Part shown: piece after piece, positions 161-35,984 of the stretch
Layout of the letters: each line of letters starts with the position of its first letter
How positions within the stretch are numbered: the stretch's first letter is position 1
DNA from: a virus
Virus record (IMG/VR): IMGVR_UViG_3300037041_000752
Span: 1-38,245 of that record
Strand: one strand, 5' to 3'
Length of the DNA: 38,245 bases
The notes under the pieces: model-generated
Told to the model about the DNA's origin: nothing
Databases searched by the model: none
Seen by the model: the letters and a program-made list of their open reading frames with translations, nothing else
Made by a program: the position numbers and the translations under genes

Positions 161-1321
161 TTATCTACAAATTATTTTGTCGGTATCTTTTTTAGGGATG
201 TTTAAAATAATTTTTTTTAAAACATCAGATTCTCTGTCAAATACATAAGCGGGGATTGAGGTACCTCTAAGGTCAGGATTAATTCTAAATCTAATTGATA
301 ATCTTTTTTCATTACACCCTCTTTGACCTAAATTAGACCAATAGAATTGAATGTATTTTGACGGTATAATAGTATAATCATCATATATTAAACCGTCCAT
401 ATTACCTGACAAGTTATCAAGGAAAGTTTCAGCAATTGGTAACTTTTCAATCCACTTGAATATAGCGTCTATGGTGTGGTTATATATTCCTAAATGAGTT
501 GGTTTAAAAGATGATAAATCGCTTTGTTTAAAAATAGAAAAGAATTCGGACAAATAACTATCAATGTTAGTATCCATCATTTTTATCTCAAACTTTGACC
601 CCGCACTAAAAAGGATTTCTTCATTACCATTATCATCAATAACATATAAAGGTTTTTTAGAAACAACATCAATTTTAGTTGGGTTAGATGATTCTAAAGA
701 TTCAACTATACAAGATTTAATATCTTCTAGTAGTTCGGTGAATTCATTCTCATCGGAAGTTTGTTTAAGTTTATCTATAATATCAATAAATTTATCGGTA
801 CTTTCTTCACCACATTTATAATTTAAACTTAACCCAGTTCGTTTAGGGTCAAAATATTCACCAACAAAACTGTTTTCGTATTGGGTATATTCGGTCTGAC
901 GAACATTTTTAAGTATTTCCTCTAAATCATCAGGTATAATACCCTCTCTACTTATTTGTTTAAGTTTTCTTTTTAAAGGTACATTTTCCACTTCATTACC
1001 ATCTATAAATTTTGCAATGGTTTTTAGTGTGCTAATAGTTCTATCTTCATATTGTAATGATAACTCTAAAATCTTAGGTAGTAACCCAACATTTTTATGA
1101 CCAAAAAATTTGTGTATTGACCTTATAGAATCATTTAATGATTTTTTAAGTTTGTCGTCTAAAGTATCCCTCAATGATTTTAATCTACACGATGGACTGT
1201 TAATGTTTCTTGACGTTTTACATAGTTTAGATAAATAATCACGGGTGTCCGCATTTGTTACGACTTCACCATCAGATTCAAAAATACGGTTGTACTGACT
1301 TTCAGACATTATGAATTTCAT
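161..1321 (-). CDS. Unknown 386-aa protein with an N-terminal prohead-protease-like site
   Basis: I do not recognise a domain in this 386-aa protein. Its N terminus, MKFIMSESQYNRIF, resembles the short capsid-targeting tags of T4 internal proteins. A possible cleavage point follows M-S-E at Glu7, though P3 is Met rather than the Ile/Leu usual in T4. A similar tag (MKYIITEG) occurs inside the next gene upstream. The body is mixed charged helical sequence with a few Cys; the C-terminal third is aromatic and basic (around residues 325-360). No signal peptide or membrane segment is visible. The gene starts one base beyond the stop codon of the SOD fusion gene, so the two are probably co-transcribed. 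It may be a cargo protein packaged in the head and injected; this rests only on the tag and the neighbour. Confidence 0.75.
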   Translation of the reverse strand: MKFIMSESQYNRIFESDGEVVTNADTRDYLSKLCKTSRNINSPSCRLKSLRDTLDDKLKKSLNDSIRSIHKFFGHKNVGLLPKILELSLQYEDRTISTLKTIAKFIDGNEVENVPLKRKLKQISREGIIPDDLEEILKNVRQTEYTQYENSFVGEYFDPKRTGLSLNYKCGEESTDKFIDIIDKLKQTSDENEFTELLEDIKSCIVESLESSNPTKIDVVSKKPLYVIDDNGNEEILFSAGSKFEIKMMDTNIDSYLSEFFSIFKQSDLSSFKPTHLGIYNHTIDAIFKWIEKLPIAETFLDNLSGNMDGLIYDDYTIIPSKYIQFYWSNLGQRGCNEKRLSIRFRINPDLRGTSIPAYVFDRESDVLKKIILNIPKKDTDKIICR

Positions 1322-1322
1322 A

Positions 1323-2852
1323 TTAATAAATATCCTTTATTAAGTTATTGTCAGGTATAACATATTTACCATTAGTTATTTTGACATTTTTATTATCAAA
1401 AATCATAATTTTACCACTAGTACTTGCAAAAATTAACCAATCAGTTGTATATTGTTTTATTTGACCAGTATCATTCATTGTATATTCCCCATTTGATAGG
1501 TCAAATGTTTTATATGGTTTTACTTGTGCAGTGAAAATGTTATTATCAATTTTAACTCTACAATCAATTCCACCGACAGCATCTTCCAAACTACCAAGTT
1601 CTCCCACTTTTTCTACATTATCTTCACCATAGATTTCTTTAAGTTTGGTAACAACCATCTCTTCAGTGGCATCACCAATTTTGTTGGTACTACCTAATGT
1701 TGCCATTATGTTTTCAAATGTCGGAGATGAAATTGTAAAAATTCTAAATTTAAATTCATTAACAATCTCAATAAGTTTTTTAGCTTCGTCTATTTGTTGT
1801 TTAACTGACTTACCATCAAATGATATTGTTGGTCTGTTTAATTTTGTTAATACTTTGTTAATGTCATTTATTAAAACACAGAACACCTCGTAGTTTGTAT
1901 TAATTTTATTTAATACAGACCTACCAGGTTTTTCTAAATCATAGATACCATTCATTTGGTCAACACCATACTCATCTTTTTTATAGTAGTTGTCAGGAAA
2001 TACATCTGATAATATTTTTTCAATCCCATATCGGTAAATCTTTTTAACATACTTGTTGGTGTTAAATATGTCTTTGTATTTAACAACATCGGACCTCTTA
2101 CACCTATCGGAAACACCCTCAGTAATGATATATTTCATTTTAATATTCTCATTAATTTTAGTTTGAGTTTTCATCTTCAACAGTTCGTTAACAAATTTCC
2201 AATTCACACATTTCCAAAAGTTACGAATATATTCATCTCTTTTATTATGATATTTTAAATAATAAGCATGTTCCCATAAATCCAAACCTAATAGAGGGTA
2301 ACCACCATTCTTAATGATATTCATCAATGGATTATCTTGGTTTGGTGTTGAGATGATTTTTAATGTACCTCGTTTAGTTAGTACTAACCATATCCACCCT
2401 GAACCAAATCTGTTTTTAGCGACAGTTTCAAACTTAGATTTAAACTCTTTAAAACTTCCAAATGATTTAACAATTTTTTTAAGTATTGGTCCATCACATT
2501 GTTGTTCTTTTGGTGATAACATTTTCCAAAACAAAGCGTGATTAAATGCTCCACCAGCATTATTTCTAATTGTTTTGTTATACTTACTAATTTTCTTAAT
2601 GATATCCTCAAGTTCCACATCACCATATTCTTTTTTGGATAGTGCGTCATTTAATTTCTTAACATACCCTTTATAGTGTTTATTGTAATGAAAATCCATT
2701 GTTTCAGCATCAATGAAATTTTTTAAAGCTGAATAGGCATACGGTAATTTCTCAATCCCGATTTTTTTCGCTTCACTAATAAGTGTTCTTTTTGCGGATT
2801 GTTTTTTAATATCTTCAGTAAGCAATTTTGCTTTTTCTTCTAACGATTTCAT
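1323..2852 (-). CDS. Mn-type superoxide dismutase fused to a PD-(D/E)XK nuclease-like domain
   Basis: Residues about 34-226 form a complete Fe/Mn superoxide dismutase. The four metal ligands are visible as H59 (KHYKGYV), H105 (FNHALFW), D191 and H195 (DLWEHAYY). Gly100/Gly101 before the second ligand and Gln172 in NQDNPL match the Mn-type pattern. The enzyme would convert superoxide to hydrogen peroxide and oxygen. Before it lies a 33-residue extension containing L-T-E (Glu13) and L-I-S-E-A (Glu27), which resemble T4 prohead protease sites. After it comes a tag that looks like a gene start, MKYIITEG at 239-246, then about 260 residues ending in a nuclease-like core: E397/E398, D430 and Q443-V-K445, the D...QxK pattern of Mrr-like enzymes. 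SOD homology is certain; the nuclease call is tentative and cleavage is inferred. Bacterial SodA/SodB are about 200 aa, so this protein is a fusion. Confidence 0.9.
   Translation of the reverse strand: MKSLEEKAKLLTEDIKKQSAKRTLISEAKKIGIEKLPYAYSALKNFIDAETMDFHYNKHYKGYVKKLNDALSKKEYGDVELEDIIKKISKYNKTIRNNAGGAFNHALFWKMLSPKEQQCDGPILKKIVKSFGSFKEFKSKFETVAKNRFGSGWIWLVLTKRGTLKIISTPNQDNPLMNIIKNGGYPLLGLDLWEHAYYLKYHNKRDEYIRNFWKCVNWKFVNELLKMKTQTKINENIKMKYIITEGVSDRCKRSDVVKYKDIFNTNKYVKKIYRYGIEKILSDVFPDNYYKKDEYGVDQMNGIYDLEKPGRSVLNKINTNYEVFCVLINDINKVLTKLNRPTISFDGKSVKQQIDEAKKLIEIVNEFKFRIFTISSPTFENIMATLGSTNKIGDATEEMVVTKLKEIYGEDNVEKVGELGSLEDAVGGIDCRVKIDNNIFTAQVKPYKTFDLSNGEYTMNDTGQIKQYTTDWLIFASTSGKIMIFDNKNVKITNGKYVIPDNNLIKDIY
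1326..1332 (-). promoter_or_regulatory. TATTTAT element 4 nt before the 386-aa gene
   Basis: The coding strand reads GGATATTTATTAATATG. The element overlaps the last codons of the SOD fusion gene (Asp-Ile-Tyr-stop), so its sequence could simply be coding. Its position just before a start codon matches the elements at 4703 and 36054. Confidence 0.25.
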
Positions 2853-6557: not shown

Positions 6558-9500
6558 ATGGCGACAAATAGTAAAGTATTCGTATCACCAGGGGTCTACA
6601 CCTCAGAGGTTGATTTGAGTTTTGTGTCTCAGAGTGTTGGTGTTACTACATTAGGTATTGTTGGGGAAACATTAAAAGGTCCCGCATTTGAACCTATTTT
6701 TATAACCAACTATGATGAGTTCACATCTTATTTTGGAGGGACATTACCCGAAAAATTTGTAAACACACAAATTCCAAAATATGAAGCGTCTTACATTGCA
6801 AAATCTTATTTACAACAATCTAACCAATTGTTTGTTACAAGAATATTAGGATTATCGGGTTATGATGCAGGACCGTCTTGGTCAATATTAACTAAAGCAA
6901 ATGTTGATAAGTCAACAGTTGATTTCTATTGTGAAAGTGGGGTTACTGTAGATTGTGTATTTGAATGTGTTGATTATAAAACAATAGATTTTGCAGTTCC
7001 TTTTACGGGATGTAATAATGACTTAGGTGGTATTGTAATTGACACCGCATCATTAGAATCTCAAGCACCTGAACTATCAGTTAAACTTGACTTACCATAT
7101 GAAAATTTTGATAATTCAACTTCAACCCTATATGGTGATATAAGACAACAGATATTTAATATCTTAAATGAACCTAACCCATCAACAGTACTAAACTCAA
7201 TTAATTTTTACGGTACAATTCCTAATTCCGATTATATTGGTTTATCAGGATTAACAGGTTCAACAAATGTATTTAGTGTGAACAGTGTTGATTCGGCGGT
7301 TGCTGACTATACGGCACCTGAAAATGACGCTTGGTATTATGCGTTGTTTGATAATAATGGTGGTGGTTCATATTCAGGTTATTCGTTTTGGACTATAGTT
7401 AGTGGTTTAACTCTTACACCAGTAACTACTACAACAACAATCCCACCATCAACTACAACGACAACAACAAATCCTTGTGTTACACCTTTACCAACAACAA
7501 CTACAACAACTACCACAGCCGCACCTGTTAATTGTTACACAGGTACATTAATTGGTAGAATTTATATTTATTCGGGAACGGCTTACACTGATTATGATGA
7601 TTTAGTGGTTGCAACAATGCGTTCAAGAGGATTAGCAACATATGGTTCTAACGACAATGGTGCGGTTTATGAAGTTTCAGGTTTAACTGATGTTGAAATG
7701 GTTTGCACAAATGGTTATTCAGGTGTAACTAAAAACCCATTCTCAACATTTGGTCTTAATGTAACTAAGATTGATGGAGAAACATTGTTCTTTGAAACAT
7801 CTCTCTCAACATCTGATTCAAAATACTTAAGTAAAGTTTTTGGTAAATCTAACTTTGGTAAAGACAAAGATTCAGTTCCATTGTTTGTTGAGGAGGATTA
7901 CGCAACTTTACTACTTTATGCTTACAAGAAAGGTTATATTAGAGGTTTAAATTGTGAATTATCTACAGCACCTGAAGCAAGAAATAATGACTCAACTTCT
8001 TTAGGTTTCTATTTGGAAAAATATCAATCTCCTGAGTCTCCTTGGGTTGTTTCTGAATTAAGAGGTTCTAAAGTTTATGACTTGTTTAGAGTTATTACAA
8101 TTTCAGATGGAAATGATGCTAATACTGAAGTTAAAATATCTATTATAAATATATCGTTTAACAGTGGAACTTTTGATGTGTTGGTTAGAGATTTCTTTGA
8201 CACTGACAATAACCCAATTGTGATTGAAAAATTCACTAATTGTAATATGAATCCAAGCGATAATGGATTCATCGGTAAAAAAATAGGTACTTCTGATGGT
8301 GAATATCAATTGAATTCTAAATACATTATGTTGGAAATTAACGAGGACGCACCGATAGACGCATTACCTTGTGGATTCAAAGGATTTACAACTAGAAGTT
8401 ATAATGGGGCACGTTCACCATTCCCTATTATAAAATCAAAATACGATTTCCCTGGTGAAGTAGTGTTTGACCCACCATTTGGTCTATCAACAGGAGCTAA
8501 TGCTGTTACATTGAGCCCAGGTGATAATGTTAGAAGAACTTATTTGGGTATTTCGGACACAATTGGTGTTGATTCTGATTTCTACCAATATAAAGGTAAA
8601 CAAATGCCGACCAATGTTCAGTTTGCGGTTACAGGTCCAAATTGGGCTTATAGAACAAGAGGTTTCCATATGGATAAAAACGCTAGTGGTATTACTATCC
8701 CTAATACGTTTGTAACAAGTGGAACACCAGAATTCGTTTGTGGTAGTGGTGAATTCACTTCAGACCCTGATAATGAAAATAATCCATACTACAGATTATT
8801 CGCTAGAAAATTCACATTCTTAGTGAGTGGTGGATTTGATGGATGGGACATCTACAGAGAATATAGAACTAACCAAGATAGATTTGTTATTGGTAGGTCA
8901 GGTTATTTAAAAGGTGCGGCACCATCATTAAGATACCCAACGGCAACAGGATGGGGGGCATTTAAACCTATAACATTACCTGGACAAAGTAGTGAGATTT
9001 CAAATACCGACTACTACGCGTACTTATTGGGTATTCAAACATTCTCTAACCCTGAATCTGTTAACATCAATGTATTTGTAACACCAGGTATTGATTATGT
9101 AAATAACTCTGACTTAGTTGGAGCGGCAATTGAAATGATTGAATTTGATAGAGCCGATTCAATTTACATCACAACAACACCTGACTACAATATGTTCACA
9201 CCATCATTAGGTGACCCTACCGATTTAATTTACCCTCAAGAAGCGGTTGATAATTTGGAAACGGCTGGTTTAGATTCTAACTATACGGCAACTTACTATC
9301 CTTGGATTTTGGTAAGAGATACTGTTAATAATACACAGATTTATTTACCACCAACAGGTGAGGTTACCAAGAATTTAGCGTTGACTGATAATATCGCATT
9401 CCCTTGGTTCGCAGCGGCGGGATACACAAGAGGTATTGTTAGCTCAATTAAAGCTCGTAAGAAGTTAACTCAAGAAGATAGAGATACTCTTTACAAGGGT

Positions 9501-9896
9501 AGAATTAACCCAATCGCAACTTTCTCTGATGTAGGTACTGTGATATGGGGTAACAAAACTCTTCAAATTAAAGAATCAGCTCTTGATAGAATTAATGTTA
9601 GAAGATTGTTACTACAAGCTCGTAAGTTGATTTCAGCGGTATCTGTTAGATTGTTGTTTGAACAAAACGATGATAAAGTAAGACAAGATTTCCTAAATGC
9701 GGTGAATCCAATCTTAGACGGTATCAGAAGAGACAGAGGTCTATACGATTTCCGAGTAACTGTTTCATCAGACGCGGCTGATTTAGATAGAAACCAAATG
9801 ACAGGTAAAATCTACATCAAACCAACTAAGTCGTTAGAGTTTATAGATATCACATTCTATATCACACCGACAGGAGCTTCGTTTGATAACATTTAA
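6558..9896 (+). CDS. Contractile tail sheath protein (gp18-like) with a large insertion
   Basis: The sheath subunit polymerises around the tail tube and contracts to drive the tube through the host envelope. The N terminus (FVSPGVYTSEVDLSFVSQ, then GIVGETLKGPAFEPIFI) and the C-terminal third (ending DITFYITPTGASFDNI) are typical of T4 gp18. The C-terminal part includes WFAAAGYTRGIVSSIKARKK and RRLLLQARKLISAVSVRLLF. The protein is 1112 aa, against 659 for T4 gp18. The extra length sits in the first half. It includes a Thr-rich stretch (about 290-322) broken by Pro and Cys, followed by a domain-sized segment and a Cys-rich part (about 130-155). The insert is probably a surface domain of the sheath. 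A hairpin follows the stop at 9911. The start is the first ATG after the A-rich leader. Confidence 0.96.
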   Translation: MATNSKVFVSPGVYTSEVDLSFVSQSVGVTTLGIVGETLKGPAFEPIFITNYDEFTSYFGGTLPEKFVNTQIPKYEASYIAKSYLQQSNQLFVTRILGLSGYDAGPSWSILTKANVDKSTVDFYCESGVTVDCVFECVDYKTIDFAVPFTGCNNDLGGIVIDTASLESQAPELSVKLDLPYENFDNSTSTLYGDIRQQIFNILNEPNPSTVLNSINFYGTIPNSDYIGLSGLTGSTNVFSVNSVDSAVADYTAPENDAWYYALFDNNGGGSYSGYSFWTIVSGLTLTPVTTTTTIPPSTTTTTTNPCVTPLPTTTTTTTTAAPVNCYTGTLIGRIYIYSGTAYTDYDDLVVATMRSRGLATYGSNDNGAVYEVSGLTDVEMVCTNGYSGVTKNPFSTFGLNVTKIDGETLFFETSLSTSDSKYLSKVFGKSNFGKDKDSVPLFVEEDYATLLLYAYKKGYIRGLNCELSTAPEARNNDSTSLGFYLEKYQSPESPWVVSELRGSKVYDLFRVITISDGNDANTEVKISIINISFNSGTFDVLVRDFFDTDNNPIVIEKFTNCNMNPSDNGFIGKKIGTSDGEYQLNSKYIMLEINEDAPIDALPCGFKGFTTRSYNGARSPFPIIKSKYDFPGEVVFDPPFGLSTGANAVTLSPGDNVRRTYLGISDTIGVDSDFYQYKGKQMPTNVQFAVTGPNWAYRTRGFHMDKNASGITIPNTFVTSGTPEFVCGSGEFTSDPDNENNPYYRLFARKFTFLVSGGFDGWDIYREYRTNQDRFVIGRSGYLKGAAPSLRYPTATGWGAFKPITLPGQSSEISNTDYYAYLLGIQTFSNPESVNINVFVTPGIDYVNNSDLVGAAIEMIEFDRADSIYITTTPDYNMFTPSLGDPTDLIYPQEAVDNLETAGLDSNYTATYYPWILVRDTVNNTQIYLPPTGEVTKNLALTDNIAFPWFAAAGYTRGIVSSIKARKKLTQEDRDTLYKGRINPIATFSDVGTVIWGNKTLQIKESALDRINVRRLLLQARKLISAVSVRLLFEQNDDKVRQDFLNAVNPILDGIRRDRGLYDFRVTVSSDAADLDRNQMTGKIYIKPTKSLEFIDITFYITPTGASFDNI
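7419..7530 (+). repeat. Threonine-rich low-complexity tract in the sheath gene
   Basis: Runs of ACA/ACT/ACC codons give blocks of five to eight Thr separated by IPPS, NPCVTPLP and ending AAPVN. The same block type (PTTTTTTTAAP) recurs in the 1619-aa baseplate protein at 17306-17340, although the codons differ. Confidence 0.9.
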
Positions 9897-9959: not shown

Positions 9960-10781
9960 ATGAAAAGAAGAAGAATACGTGAAGGTTTTGATGAGTCAGG
10001 TACTCCCGACATGAAGTACTACGCTTTTGACTGGGATGATAATATCTTAGAAATGCCAACTAAAATTATTTTAAGAGATGAGGAAGGTGATGAAGTACCC
10101 ATGAGTACCGAAGATTTTGCTCACTATAGAGGTAATTTGGATAAAAAAGAACCATTTGAATATAACGGACACACTATTGTTGGATTCGCTGAACGACCAT
10201 TTAGATATTTTACGGTGGAGGGTGATAAAAATTTTATAGTTGACGTTATGATGGCTAAACAAGGTCCTGCATGGTCTGATTTTGTTGAGGCGATTAATAA
10301 CGGGTCCATATTCGCTATCGTAACTGCTAGAGGTCACACACCTTCAGTTATTAAAGATGCGGTATATAACTTAATTGCGAGTAACCACGATGGTATTGAT
10401 TCAAATGAGTTAGTAAAAAATTTAGAAAAGTATAGAGATTTAGCAGGGGCGGAACCAATGTCTAAAAAAGAAATGATTGATGAATATCTTAATTTGTGTA
10501 AATTTTACCCTGTTACATACGGTAGTGGTTCAGCAACAAATCCTGAACAAGGTAAAATAGACGCTTTAACCGAATTTGTGAATTACATTAAACAAATGTC
10601 AAAATTTTTAAAGAAGAAGGCATTTCTAAAAAATGAAGTTAGTAACAATTTTGTACCACAAATCGGATTTTCAGATGATGACCTTAGAAATTTGGAAAAG
10701 GTTAAATCTCATTTTGAGACTGACCCAGAAAACATAATTAAAACAATTTCAACACACGGAGGAATAAAAAAACCTTATTAA
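9960..10781 (+). CDS. HAD-superfamily hydrolase-like protein
   Basis: This 273-aa protein has the haloacid dehalogenase layout: motif I FDWDDN with D24 and D26 (nucleophile and acid/base positions) and motif II AIVTARGHTP. A possible motif III Lys lies in EQGKIDAL, and motif IV is GFSDDDLRN. Enzymes of this superfamily mostly transfer or remove phosphate; the substrate here is unknown. The N terminus, MKRRRIREGFDE, contains I-R-E followed by Gly, which could be a prohead protease site. It sits between the sheath and tube genes, which are adjacent in T4, and has its own hairpin and TATTTAT element upstream. Its job may be in virion assembly or as an injected protein; neither is proven. No signal peptide is present. 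Confidence 0.8.
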   Translation: MKRRRIREGFDESGTPDMKYYAFDWDDNILEMPTKIILRDEEGDEVPMSTEDFAHYRGNLDKKEPFEYNGHTIVGFAERPFRYFTVEGDKNFIVDVMMAKQGPAWSDFVEAINNGSIFAIVTARGHTPSVIKDAVYNLIASNHDGIDSNELVKNLEKYRDLAGAEPMSKKEMIDEYLNLCKFYPVTYGSGSATNPEQGKIDALTEFVNYIKQMSKFLKKKAFLKNEVSNNFVPQIGFSDDDLRNLEKVKSHFETDPENIIKTISTHGGIKKPY

Positions 10782-31204: not shown

Positions 31205-32605
31205 ATGAGTTCTAAGAAAAATTTTGATTATTTAGGTAGCAGTTTTCAGCTACAATTATTAAACCAAATTATTGTTGATAAGGATTTTGCGAGGTCCATA
31301 ATTGATGTGATTGAGGTTAGTTATTTTGAGAACAAATACTTCAAATTAATTATGCAAATGATTAAGGAGTATTACTCAAAATACGAACATACACCAACAT
31401 ACGACACATTAGAACAGATTACAAAATCTGAATTACAACAAGAGTTGGCGTCTAAAATGGTTATTGATACCATTAAAAAAATTAAAGAGGTTCCCGTTGA
31501 AGGTGGGGACTTTGTACAAGACAAAGCAATGAAGTTTTGTAAACAACAAGAACTTCAAAAGGTAATGAACAAAGCTCAAAAAATCATTGATGGTGGTGAG
31601 TTTGAAAACTACGACAAAGTAGAACAATTAGTAAGAACCGCATTACAAGTTGGGGAGAGAGAAGATGGTATGCAAGATGTCTTCTCTGAGTTGGAAGAGG
31701 TGTTGAATGAAGATTACAGACACCCAGTCCCTATGGGAATTGCGGGTATTGACAGATTGTTAAAAGGTGGTTTGGCTAAAGGTGAAATTGGTGTCGTGTT
31801 GGCACCAACAGGTGTGGGTAAATCAACCTTACTTACAAAAATCTCAAACAATGCATTTAATTTGGGGTATAACGTCCTTCAAATATTTTTTGAGGACAAC
31901 CCAAAGATTATTCAAAGAAAACACATAACTTTGTGGACTAAAGTTCATCCTGATGAATTGTCGGTTAAAAAAGATGAGGTTATGACTAAAGTGAAAGAAA
32001 TTAAAGATAAGATGGAAAACAAACTTATCTTGAAAAAATTACCTTCGGACACTATGAGTATGTTACAAATCAAAAACCAAATCAGAAAAATGATTGCTGA
32101 CGGAACAAAGATTGATATGGTTCTTTTGGATTATATTGATTGTGTTCTACCTGACAGACAAAATGGTGATGAGTGGAAATCTGAGGGTTCGGTAATGAGG
32201 TCATTTGAAGCAATGTGTCACGAACTTGATTTGGTGGGTTGGACAGCAACACAAGGTAATAGAAGTTCAATTTCATCTGAGGTTGTAACTACAGACCAAA
32301 TGGGTGGGTCAATTAAGAAAGCACAAGTGGGTCACGTTATCATATCGGTAGCAAAAACACTACAACAAAAGGAGATGAAGTTGGCAACTATTGCCATCAC
32401 TAAATCTCGTATCGGTGATGATGGTGTTGTTTTTGAAAACTGTAAGTTTGACAACGGAATGTTAGAAATTGATACTGAAACATCCGTAACATTCTTGGGT
32501 CTTGAAGAACAACAAGAAGAAAGAAATAGACAGAGAATCAAAGATTTGATGGAAAGAAGAAAAGAAAAGAAAACTAACGAAAACAAAGAAGATAAATCAG
32601 AATAA
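31205..32605 (+). CDS. Replicative DNA helicase (gp41/DnaB-like)
   Basis: The 466-aa protein is a DnaB-family hexameric helicase that unwinds the fork in the 5'-3' direction. Walker A is [11 protein letters not shown] (200-210), the catalytic Glu is E230 in IFFEDN, and Walker B is near residue 300 ([12 protein letters not shown]). The C-terminal ATPase core continues with [12 protein letters not shown] and [15 protein letters not shown]. The first 170 residues are the helical N-terminal domain. The C terminus is a very basic, charged tail with many Glu, Lys and Arg. T4 gp41 is 475 aa, so the size agrees. The gene abuts NrdB (1-nt spacer). Confidence 0.95.
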
Positions 32606-32606
32606 A

Positions 32607-33554
32607 ATGGAAAAAATATTAAAAGAAAACCCTGGAAGATTTGTAATATTCCCGATTGAACATAACGATATTTGGGAATATTACAAACAACATCAAGCGG
32701 CATTTTGGACGGCTGAAGAAGTGGACCTTACGGACGACATTAGAGATTGGAATAAATTGTCTGAAAATGAACAATATTTTATTAAAAATGTGTTATCATT
32801 TTTTGCGGCATCTGACGGAATTGTTAATGAAAATTTGGCTGAGAACTTCTACAGAGAGGTTCAATATCCTGAAGCTAAATTCTTCTATGGGATGCAACTT
32901 GCTATGGAAAACATTCACTCCTTGATGTATTCACTTTTGATTGATACTTATATTAATAATCCGAAGGAAAAAGATGAATGTTTCAACGCAATTGATAGGT
33001 TACCTGCAGTTCAGAAGAAAGCTAAATGGGCTCTTGATTGGATTGAAAACGCATCGTTTCAAGAAAGATTGGTTGCCTTCGCAGCGGTTGAGGGAATATT
33101 CTTTTCAGGTTCTTTTTGTTCAATATTTTGGTTAAAGTCAAGAGGTGTTATGCCAGGTTTGTGTAACGCTAATGCTCTTATTTTTAAGGATGAAAATTTG
33201 CATTGTGATTTTGCAATTCATTTGTTAAACAATCATATTGAAGACAAACCAACTGAAAAAAGAATTAAAGAGATTTTGTTATCGGCTTTGGAAATTGAGA
33301 AAGAATTTATTACCGAATCATTACCTGTATCTTTGATTGGTATGAATTCTAACTTAATGAAGCAATATCTTGAGTTTGTGGTTGATGGACTACTTGTTAA
33401 ATTTGGTTGTAAAAAACAATTTAATGTAGAACAACCATTTAAATTTATGGAACAGATTGCTGTTGAAACAAAAGGTAATTTCTTTGAATCAAGAACTGTG
33501 GAATACCAAAAAGCAAAATTGAATGAAACGATTACTTTTACGGACGATTTTTAA
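32607..33554 (+). CDS. nrdB: Ribonucleotide reductase class Ia, small subunit
   Basis: The 315-aa R2 subunit holds the diiron-tyrosyl radical for deoxynucleotide synthesis. The ligands are visible as D70 ([13 protein letters not shown]), E101 and H104 (MENIHS), E162 ([10 protein letters not shown]), E196 and H199 (FKDENLHCD). The radical Tyr is Y108 in [16 protein letters not shown]. This signature is closer to the eukaryotic-type R2 than to the E. coli NrdB form, and the length is shorter than the 375 aa of E. coli NrdB. The protein ends TFTDDF, a probable docking tail for the large subunit. It starts 1 nt after the helicase stop and is followed by NrdA, so the enzyme is made from one transcript. 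Confidence 0.97.
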
Positions 33555-33572
33555 TAAAAAATTTATTTAATT

Positions 33573-35984
33573 ATGATGTCATTAAAAATTAAAAAAAGAG
33601 GTGGAGATGAGGTGTCATTTAACCCACAAAAAATTTATAATAGGGTTAAAAGAGCATCAAAAGGATTGAATGTCAATTCAGATGAGATTTTTATCAAAGT
33701 TATTACTTCGGTACCAACTGAAGGGACTATAACAACTAAAGAGTTAGATAAATTGGTCTATGAAATTGCTGCGGCATATACTGGTAGTCATCACGATTAC
33801 TCAAGATTGGCATCCTCTGTGGCAATTTCATCTTACCATAAAGAAACTGATGAAAGTTTTTCAAAAACAATGGAAATTCTTCATAAAGAAGGTGTAATTA
33901 ATACTGAATTGATAGAGAAAATCGTGTTGTATGGACCTGAAAATATTGATAAGTTGATTAATCACGAAAACGATTATCAATTTGATTATTTCGCTTGGAA
34001 AGCATTACAGGAAATGTATCTACTTAAATTACCCAATGGTAAGGTAATTGAAAGACCTCAACATATGTATATGAGAATTGCTTTGTGGGTTACTGATTCA
34101 TATGATGAGGCGATAGAATACTATAAGTCATTATCTGAACAAAGAATTTCAAAGGCAACTCCAATTATGATTAATTCAGGAACTTTGATTCCTCAATTAG
34201 CGTCGTGTGTTTTACATTACAACAATTCGGATTCAAGAAATGGGTTATTGGCGACTATGAACGACATTTCTACTTATTCATCTGATGCGGCAGGTATTGG
34301 TCTTTGTATGTCAAACCAAAGAAGTAAAGAAAGTCGTATTACAACATCAGGTGGATATGCTGGAGGGTTGTTAAAATATCTTAAAATTGTAAATGAATCA
34401 TTGAGATTCTTTAATCAACAAGGTAGAAGACCTGGTAGTGCGGCTATCTATATTGAACCTTGGCATAAAGATATTTTTGACCTATTGGATATCAAAAAGA
34501 ACACTGGTAAAGAGGAATTAAGAGCGAGAGATTTGTTTACGGCACTATGGATTCCTGACAATTTTATGAGGGCGGTTAAGAATAACGAGGATTGGTATTT
34601 GTTTTGTCCTAACGATATTCTTAAATCAGGTATTAAACCACTACAAGAATGTTATGGTGATGAATATGAGGAAAACTATCGTAAAGCGGTTGAATTAGGT
34701 TTAGGTAAAAAAGTTAAGGCTCAAGAAGTTTGGAATAAAATTATTGAATCTCAAGTAGAAACAGGTGTTCCTTATTTATGTTCTAAAGATAATGCAAATA
34801 AGAAAACAAACCATCAAAACATTGGAGTTATTAAACAATCAAACTTGTGTAATGAGATTTACCAATATACTGATGAGACAACAACGGCTATTTGCACCCT
34901 TTCATCTATGGTATTAAAGAATTTTATTATTGATGGAAAATTTGATTTTAAATTATTACATAATGAGGTTAGAAAAGTCGTTAGAACACTTAACAAAGTG
35001 ATTGACATTAACAGTTACTCAACTGAAAAAGGTCGTAAAGGTGGTTTAGAACAAAGAGCAATTGCGATTGGAACACAAGGTCTTGCAGATGTATTCTTTA
35101 TTATGGATTATATGTTCACATCTGAACAAGCAAGACAACTAAACAAAGATATCTTTGAAACGATTTACTTCGCGGCAATTACTGAAAGTATGGAGTTATG
35201 TAAATCAGGTAAATACCAACCTTACGATTTCTTTAATGGTTCACCAATGTCAAAAGGTATTTTCCAGTTTGATATGTGGGGATTAACTGAAAGTGATTTG
35301 TTTTGGGATTGGTCTCAACTTAAAGAAGATGTTAAAAAATATGGGGTTTGTAACTCACTATTCACGGCTCAAATGCCTGTGGCGTCTTCGGCTAAGATTA
35401 CAGGTTCATATGAAATGACTGAACCAGCACACTCGGCTATTTTTAACAGACGAGTTGTTGGTGGTGAAATTATGATTGTTAACAAATACTTAATTAATGA
35501 CTTTGAGAAGATTGGTATTTGGGGTGAGGACCTAAAGAATGAGATTATCTTTAATGAAGGGTCTATCCAAAATATTAATTTCAATAACTACCTTGACACT
35601 GAAGATAAAAACTACAATAAGAAAGTTAAACGAATTGAACATTTAATTAAAAAATACAAAACAATTTGGGAGATTTCACAAAGAGAATTGATTGATATGT
35701 GTGCGGACAGAGCACCATTCATTGACCAATCACAATCAATGAATATCTATATGTCAAACCCAACATTGTCAAAAATTACCTCATCTCACTTCCATTCGTG
35801 GGAGAAAGGGTTAAAAACTCTTTGTTACTATGTGAGAACAAAGGCGATATCAACGGGAGCCAAACATTTAGCGATAGATGTTTCCAAAATGGAAAGACCT
35901 AATAAAACAGAAAAACCAACTGTTGAGGTTTTACCACAAAAACCAACGGACTCTCAATTTGAATGTTTTGGATGTTCAGCTTAA
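33573..35984 (+). CDS. nrdA: Ribonucleotide reductase class Ia, large subunit
   Basis: The 803-aa R1 subunit reduces ribonucleotides. It has an N-terminal ATP-cone (about residues 3-95, KIKKRGGDEVSFNPQKIYNR), which would give overall activity control by dATP/ATP. Active-site residues are clear: C212 (QLASCVLHY) and C441 (AICTLSS) as the redox pair, C426 as the thiyl residue with N424 and E428 in SNLCNEIY. The C-terminal redox tail is FECFGCSA with C798 and C801. No intein or intron interrupts the gene. It starts 18 nt after NrdB with two adjacent ATGs (33573 and 33576). A strong terminator follows the stop at 35987, closing the replication block. Confidence 0.97.
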   Translation: MMSLKIKKRGGDEVSFNPQKIYNRVKRASKGLNVNSDEIFIKVITSVPTEGTITTKELDKLVYEIAAAYTGSHHDYSRLASSVAISSYHKETDESFSKTMEILHKEGVINTELIEKIVLYGPENIDKLINHENDYQFDYFAWKALQEMYLLKLPNGKVIERPQHMYMRIALWVTDSYDEAIEYYKSLSEQRISKATPIMINSGTLIPQLASCVLHYNNSDSRNGLLATMNDISTYSSDAAGIGLCMSNQRSKESRITTSGGYAGGLLKYLKIVNESLRFFNQQGRRPGSAAIYIEPWHKDIFDLLDIKKNTGKEELRARDLFTALWIPDNFMRAVKNNEDWYLFCPNDILKSGIKPLQECYGDEYEENYRKAVELGLGKKVKAQEVWNKIIESQVETGVPYLCSKDNANKKTNHQNIGVIKQSNLCNEIYQYTDETTTAICTLSSMVLKNFIIDGKFDFKLLHNEVRKVVRTLNKVIDINSYSTEKGRKGGLEQRAIAIGTQGLADVFFIMDYMFTSEQARQLNKDIFETIYFAAITESMELCKSGKYQPYDFFNGSPMSKGIFQFDMWGLTESDLFWDWSQLKEDVKKYGVCNSLFTAQMPVASSAKITGSYEMTEPAHSAIFNRRVVGGEIMIVNKYLINDFEKIGIWGEDLKNEIIFNEGSIQNINFNNYLDTEDKNYNKKVKRIEHLIKKYKTIWEISQRELIDMCADRAPFIDQSQSMNIYMSNPTLSKITSSHFHSWEKGLKTLCYYVRTKAISTGAKHLAIDVSKMERPNKTEKPTVEVLPQKPTDSQFECFGCSA

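Follow-up and report, generated by a model that had tools for sequence, protein, structure and literature searches.

The window, a 38,245-nucleotide viral fragment (38 kb), carries T4-like tail and replication genes, some of whose names are our own reading. A sheath-like protein at 6558-9896 contains threonine-rich runs (TTTTTTNPCVTPLPTTTTTTTTAAP), which is unusual in a tail protein. A single open frame of 509 codons (1323-2852, minus strand) encodes a superoxide dismutase (SOD) joined to a nuclease-like domain, and the plus strand across the same interval is riddled with stops. A one-frame fusion of this kind had been proposed here in the initial annotation and is borne out, with the correction that it lies on the minus strand. 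The features of the gene and of its neighbour are as follows.

1323..2852, minus strand: whole ORF of 509 aa, reading leader, Mn-type SOD, linker and predicted PD-(D/E)XK-type nuclease domain
2772..2852, minus strand: leader, residues 1-27, a predicted helix and proposed capsid-targeting propeptide, common to all architectures including the SOD-less ones and resembling T4 IPII/IPIII
2814..2822, minus strand: LTE-13, a weak candidate cleavage site within the leader ((I/L)xE in 59/84)
2772..2780, minus strand: ISE-27, candidate cleavage site ahead of the SOD ((I/L)xE in 84/84)
2184..2753, minus strand: Fe/Mn SOD domain, residues 34-223 (Pfam and PDB matches; ligands H55, H105, D191, H195)
2148..2156, minus strand: INE-235, candidate cleavage site in the linker ((I/L)xE in 76/84, Glu in 84/84)
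2118..2126, minus strand: ITE-245, candidate cleavage site at the nuclease junction, MKYIITE/G ((I/L)xE in 83/84, kept in SOD-less forms)
1326..2117, minus strand: C-terminal domain, residues 246-509, with a predicted PD-(D/E)XK fold (AlphaFold and Foldseek)
1518..1664, minus strand: putative nuclease core, E397, D430 and Q443-x-K445-P446, invariant in alignments
161..1321, minus strand: neighbour gene of 386 aa starting MKFIMSES(QY), read as a free tagged type C cargo from its similarity to a SOD-fused cargo

The fusion is present at full length in the best 80 viral loci, and the homologue search found the same architecture in at least 80 viral contigs, so that an assembly or frameshift artefact can be ruled out as its source. 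The dN/dS ratios, 0.046 for the SOD and 0.077 for the nuclease (19 independent pairs), indicate at the codon level that both domains are under purifying selection. In the same 19 pairs the leader codons (2772-2852 of the window and their homologues) have a dS of only 0.15, versus 0.60-0.71 elsewhere, hinting at nucleotide-level constraint or exchange at the start of the gene.

Domains of the fusion protein

The SOD domain was recognised by Pfam Sod_Fe_N (1e-23, 84 bits, cut-off 27) and Sod_Fe_C (1.2e-39, 134.9 bits, cut-off 20.9), both above the curated thresholds, and its best PDB match scored 1.8e-60. Judged by sequence, residues 34-223 are clearly a Fe/Mn SOD of the Mn type; dismutase activity and an antioxidant role are inferred from the family. 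Alignment to Mn SODs places the metal ligands, three His and one Asp, at H55, H105, D191 and H195, all of them invariant. The last three had been named correctly before, but the first ligand is H55 and not H59. The latter is equivalent to the second-sphere His30 (E. coli numbering), and Q172 together with G100-G101 forms the Mn-type signature; in the family alignment these residues are as invariant as the ligands.

Comparison of the C-terminal half with PD-(D/E)XK folds, suggested as a check when the fusion was first described, gave the expected outcome. The AlphaFold model of this domain, built with 31 homologues, reached pLDDT 89 and pTM 0.79, and the best PDB match found by Foldseek was 2ost, the PD-(D/E)XK homing endonuclease I-Ssp6803I (E 3.3e-3, prob 1.0), followed by Archaeoglobus Hjc resolvases. 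The E-value is modest, and therefore the assignment holds at the level of fold only. Four residues of the core as originally outlined (E397, D430, Q443 and K445) are invariant, E398 is not, and P446 beside them is invariant too; the core thus deviates from (D/E)-x-K in having the variant Q-x-K. On the strength of the model, the C-terminal half is predicted to be a PD-(D/E)XK-fold nuclease of this variant type, and its nuclease activity is inferred.

No Pfam, PHROG or PDB-sequence match was found for the C-terminal domain, so that profiles place it in no named nuclease family, and Pfam, PHROGs and PADLOC gave no usable match for it or for the other cargos described below. A pattern scan of GTDB species genomes for a bacterial origin of the domain returned no relative. 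A 290-aa protein that stands alone in a 735-kb phage and a 1113-aa protein of an uncultured marine phage (A0A8D9CCA0), the latter known by structure match alone, were the other relatives encountered.

Domain boundaries, exchanged cargos and tags

Sites resembling T4 prohead protease targets had been pointed out at Glu13, Glu27 and Glu245. Conservation among 84 sequences upholds Glu27 and Glu245, lends only moderate support to Glu13, and adds the strongly conserved site at Glu235, which had been overlooked. In the wider set the Glu of the leader site is found in 98/98 proteins and I or L at P3 in 97/98. Across the entire protein, no more than four (I/L)xE motifs reach a conservation of 90% among the 84 sequences: residues 25-27, 233-235, 243-245 and the LWE of the SOD active site. 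The first three all lie at domain boundaries, and the linker around Glu235 and Glu245 is variable (mean conservation 0.40-0.57). The pLDDT of the full-length AlphaFold model drops below 50 over two stretches only, residues 18-40 and 229-249. As three of just four such motifs sit at boundaries within otherwise variable linkers, the boundary sites exceed chance, in stretches that are predicted to be disordered. The motif itself is loose, occurring once in 44% and twice in 7% of control 55-residue stretches, and the argument for cleavage sites rests on conservation and position, not on mere presence.

A gp21-type (S77) protease and a gp23-type capsid protein are encoded by two 322-kb relatives, G001 and G002; G009, whose fusion is 98% identical to that of the window, also has the gp23-type capsid protein. 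All three capsid proteins carry the sequence LINE/ATSDGSSGSFETVVFP, which we interpret as the point where a T4-type propeptide ends. A protease and a capsid protein with a matching motif are thus present in relatives; the window fragment lacks the protease gene. Among the phage records listed by tblastn with the fusion, immuto, an isolated Flavobacterium phage that is related through its capsid protein and was considered as a possible model, is missing.

The C-terminal slot was explored by a scan blind to it, in which a DNA pattern for the start of the SOD domain gave 80 loci; proteins from all scans were pooled into a non-redundant set of 98. The slot behind the SOD holds the nuclease cluster and four other sequence clusters, that is, at least five cargo families. 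An (I/L)xE motif lies within 55 residues after the SOD in all 90 proteins that have a C-terminal domain, 85 of which hold at least two, and in none of the eight that end after the SOD, a control limited by the shortness of their tails. Most of the 90 share the same nuclease family, and therefore it is the other clusters that offer independent support. One of them, type D, can be aligned to the nuclease of the window over the D...QVKP core, though hhalign gives this a probability of only 37% (E 0.00036). At the other end, 16 of the 98 proteins have an N-terminal domain with the pattern HExxH...NEDEANA that finishes in a hydrophobic-x-Glu stretch; this domain may be zincin-like, an assignment based on the motif and on weak Pfam matches. 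Three-part proteins of about 700-736 aa, in which the zincin-like domain and the SOD are followed by one of several cargos, were seen in L208, L212, L224, L238, L262, L270, L274, L277, L291, L312 and L313. The exchange of cargos at the sites is observed; it suggests that related giant T4-like phages have a modular polyprotein whose cleavage takes place within the capsid and whose parts reach the host, and this modularity, as far as comparison of sequences can tell, is the strongest new evidence.

Some relatives lack the SOD and keep the leader, the (I/L)xE site and the nuclease. They occupy two positions among SOD-bearing relatives in the tree, one of them (L136) within a supported SOD-bearing clade and the other group in an unresolved part. 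Probably, the SOD was lost twice, with the reservation that the root of the tree is not firmly placed. The helicase adjoining the SOD-less nuclease (L136:3483-5852) has the sequence MGLGK/CEPKNNKVFTPNGRKKIGDLKVGDNVIG, suggestive of an intein that interrupts the ATP-binding motif.

The same cargos are found both fused to the SOD and as free genes with an N-terminal tag. The neighbour gene at 161-1321 shares 39-40% identity along its length with the SOD-fused cargo of L212, L262, L274 and L313 (E 2e-77). Type D is free in L133 (MKYIFTESQ...) and fused in L224, L270 and L291, and in G001 a more distant relative of it, starting MKITISEG..., is flanked by the protease gene and a putative scaffold gene. 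For type E, three free tagged copies are present in the same contig as the fused form. Thus, where a cargo is fused, the junction site takes the place of the N-terminal tag that the free gene has. In G001 the motif [IL]TE at residues 2-10 is 11.7 times more frequent than background (P=1.4e-18); partial samples of G002 and G009 have a small excess, and no significant enrichment at these residues was detected in immuto. On these counts, a tag of the form MK...E looks general in G001, and its extent across the group has not been demonstrated.

Runs of small genes starting MK[YF]LITES, with varied bodies, occur at 31641-34179 of G001 (L104:11641-14179) and elsewhere in this genome, resembling hypervariable tagged cargo genes. 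The FDWDDN (HAD-like) protein at 9960-10781 of the window starts without a clear tag, while its relative in L006 (1962-2927) starts MKFILTESQ; to judge from these starts, it may be another gene in which the tag varies.

Possible packaging, cleavage and delivery

We propose that in T4-like jumbo phages the fusion serves as a modular polyprotein of virion cargo, which is cut in the capsid and delivers both enzymes, and we assign this reading a probability of roughly 0.72; no virion proteomics was available for the group. The leader, which is similar to a T4 capsid-targeting sequence, would bring the protein into the prohead core, where the gp21-type (S77) protease would cut after Glu27 and after Glu235 and/or Glu245, removing the leader and the linker. 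The Mn-type SOD and the PD-(D/E)XK nuclease would thereby be freed inside the capsid and would leave it together with the DNA. In the host, the SOD might clear superoxide early in infection, and the nuclease might cut host or competing DNA. Packaging, cleavage, ejection and both physiological roles are inferred, the roles from family and fold only. The position of the gene counts against this proposal: it adjoins a helicase and virion genes and lies outside the head cluster. So do the looseness of the (I/L)xE motif, the lack of the protease gene in the window fragment, and a tag enrichment that is weak in the partial G002 and G009 samples and insignificant in immuto.

Another explanation could be simply that the protein is an ordinary bifunctional enzyme that stays uncut in the infected cell, its SOD shielding replication from superoxide and its nuclease degrading host DNA, with the linkers as tethers. 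Phages commonly carry SOD and nuclease genes as metabolic genes, fusions usually have flexible linkers such as those of the model, and cleavage has never been observed. A plain tether, however, would not be expected to hold I/L-x-Glu at three boundaries amid variable residues, nor to keep the site ahead of unrelated C-terminal domains, and the junction site matches the starts of the free cargo versions; an uncut enzyme is therefore considered unlikely. The resemblance to gene starts raises the further question of whether translation beginning internally at Met239 yields the nuclease as a protein of its own. The stretch MKYIITEG is indeed present at residues 239-246, as first noted, and the part of that note comparing it with a gene start stands in so far as other genes of these phages begin with N-terminal tags of just this form. 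As an internal start it is not live: Met239 occurs in only 9 of 53 sequences, Leu being the commonest residue at the position, and separate translation from this ATG, to which hardly any weight can be given, is rejected.

Less easily separated from our proposal, since it shares the evidence for packaging and cleavage, is the possibility that the protein is packaged and cut and not injected, serving head assembly or the capsid, for example in protecting the virion from oxidation or in DNA trimming during packaging. The type D relative located between the protease and the putative scaffold gene would fit such a role. T4 proteins with leaders of this kind, on the other hand, are ejected into the host (PMC9391042), and interchangeable, dispensable cargos suit host-acting proteins better than parts of an assembly; this possibility is regarded as improbable, even more so than the uncut enzyme.

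The SOD-nuclease observation is thus confirmed with corrections, and its interpretation as a virion-cargo polyprotein is supported by computation. For the fusion through protease-site-like junctions, as it had been described, support is provided by family conservation, two AlphaFold models and the fold search, as well as by the gp21-type protease, the (I/L)xE propeptide of the capsid protein, cargo swapping exact to the junction and separate tagged cargos. A wider reading, to which we incline with somewhat less assurance, is a general plug-in polyprotein system, in which interchangeable enzymes follow a targeting leader, are separated by capsid-protease sites, and are packaged jointly and released within the capsid. 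It would include an optional zincin-like domain and the SOD, followed by one domain out of several that are nuclease-like or unknown, the same cargos also existing as single genes tagged MK...(I/L)xE.

Virion cargos that are single proteins with a targeting tag are already known from T4. If the proposal is true, polyproteins of different enzymes, cut by the capsid protease and with domains swapped where the cuts fall, would give phages a new means of delivering sets of enzymes as infection begins. From the pattern comes a sequence rule, (I/L)xE after a leader or an MK...E tag, by which injected proteins of many uncultured phages could be predicted, and a phage SOD linked to virion delivery would make a role of superoxide in phage infection testable.

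Comparison with known systems

A literature search, limited in scope and therefore weak as evidence, found no phage SOD-nuclease and no capsid-processed phage SOD. The deposited protein A0A6J5L953 of an uncultured Caudovirales phage has a similar length (501 aa), is annotated as superoxide dismutase and holds the same nuclease fold in its model (TMq 0.92); it differs in being annotated solely as SOD, the nuclease and the junction sites being absent from the annotation shown. A distant phage SOD, PA5oct gp223 (L092:3007-3555), is annotated as hypothetical, has the N-terminus ...ISIAE/A and is flagged ESI-MS/MS in its record, a flag that is suggestive for phage SODs generally. The Cu/Zn SOD A245R of chlorovirus PBCV-1 is likewise coded by a virus and carried in the virion, with a proposed role in reducing superoxide in infected cells (PMC7019647), but it belongs to an unrelated SOD family and a eukaryotic virus, with neither nuclease nor polyprotein.

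For the C-terminal domain, I-Ssp6803I and the Hjc resolvases are the best solved-structure matches and share the PD-(D/E)XK fold, whereas identity is only 9-18%, E only 3e-3, there is no sequence-level family match, and an extra helical N-terminal region is present.

The head ejection proteins of phiKZ and SPN3US, processed by S80 prohead proteases, are similar in that giant phages package many proteins, and their long propeptides with repeated x-Glu sites can be counted as a further likeness (PMC5694885, PMC10052503). They differ in protease family and motif (S/A-x-E) and in that cleavage removes propeptides; in the parts of these two papers that were available, release of several enzymes from one chain is not described.

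The closest parallels are with IPI-IPIII and Alt of T4, whose capsid-targeting sequences (CTS) are cut by gp21. These proteins have a short MK... leader with a hydrophobic-x-Glu end and variable cargos behind the conserved leader (PMC5694885, PMC9026906). The leader of IPII and IPIII reads MKTYQEFIAE/A, and Alt, according to PMC5694885, is cut at ITE-6 and LTE-619. A packaged nuclease is feasible, because an engineered T4 CTS-nuclease fusion was packaged, processed and active, the last only with Ca added (PMC9026906). The gp21-type protease and gp23-type capsid protein of the phage group add to the likeness. Unlike in T4, where the cargos are single proteins trimmed at their ends, two or three enzyme domains are present here per chain, with the candidate sites between them and the domains exchanged.
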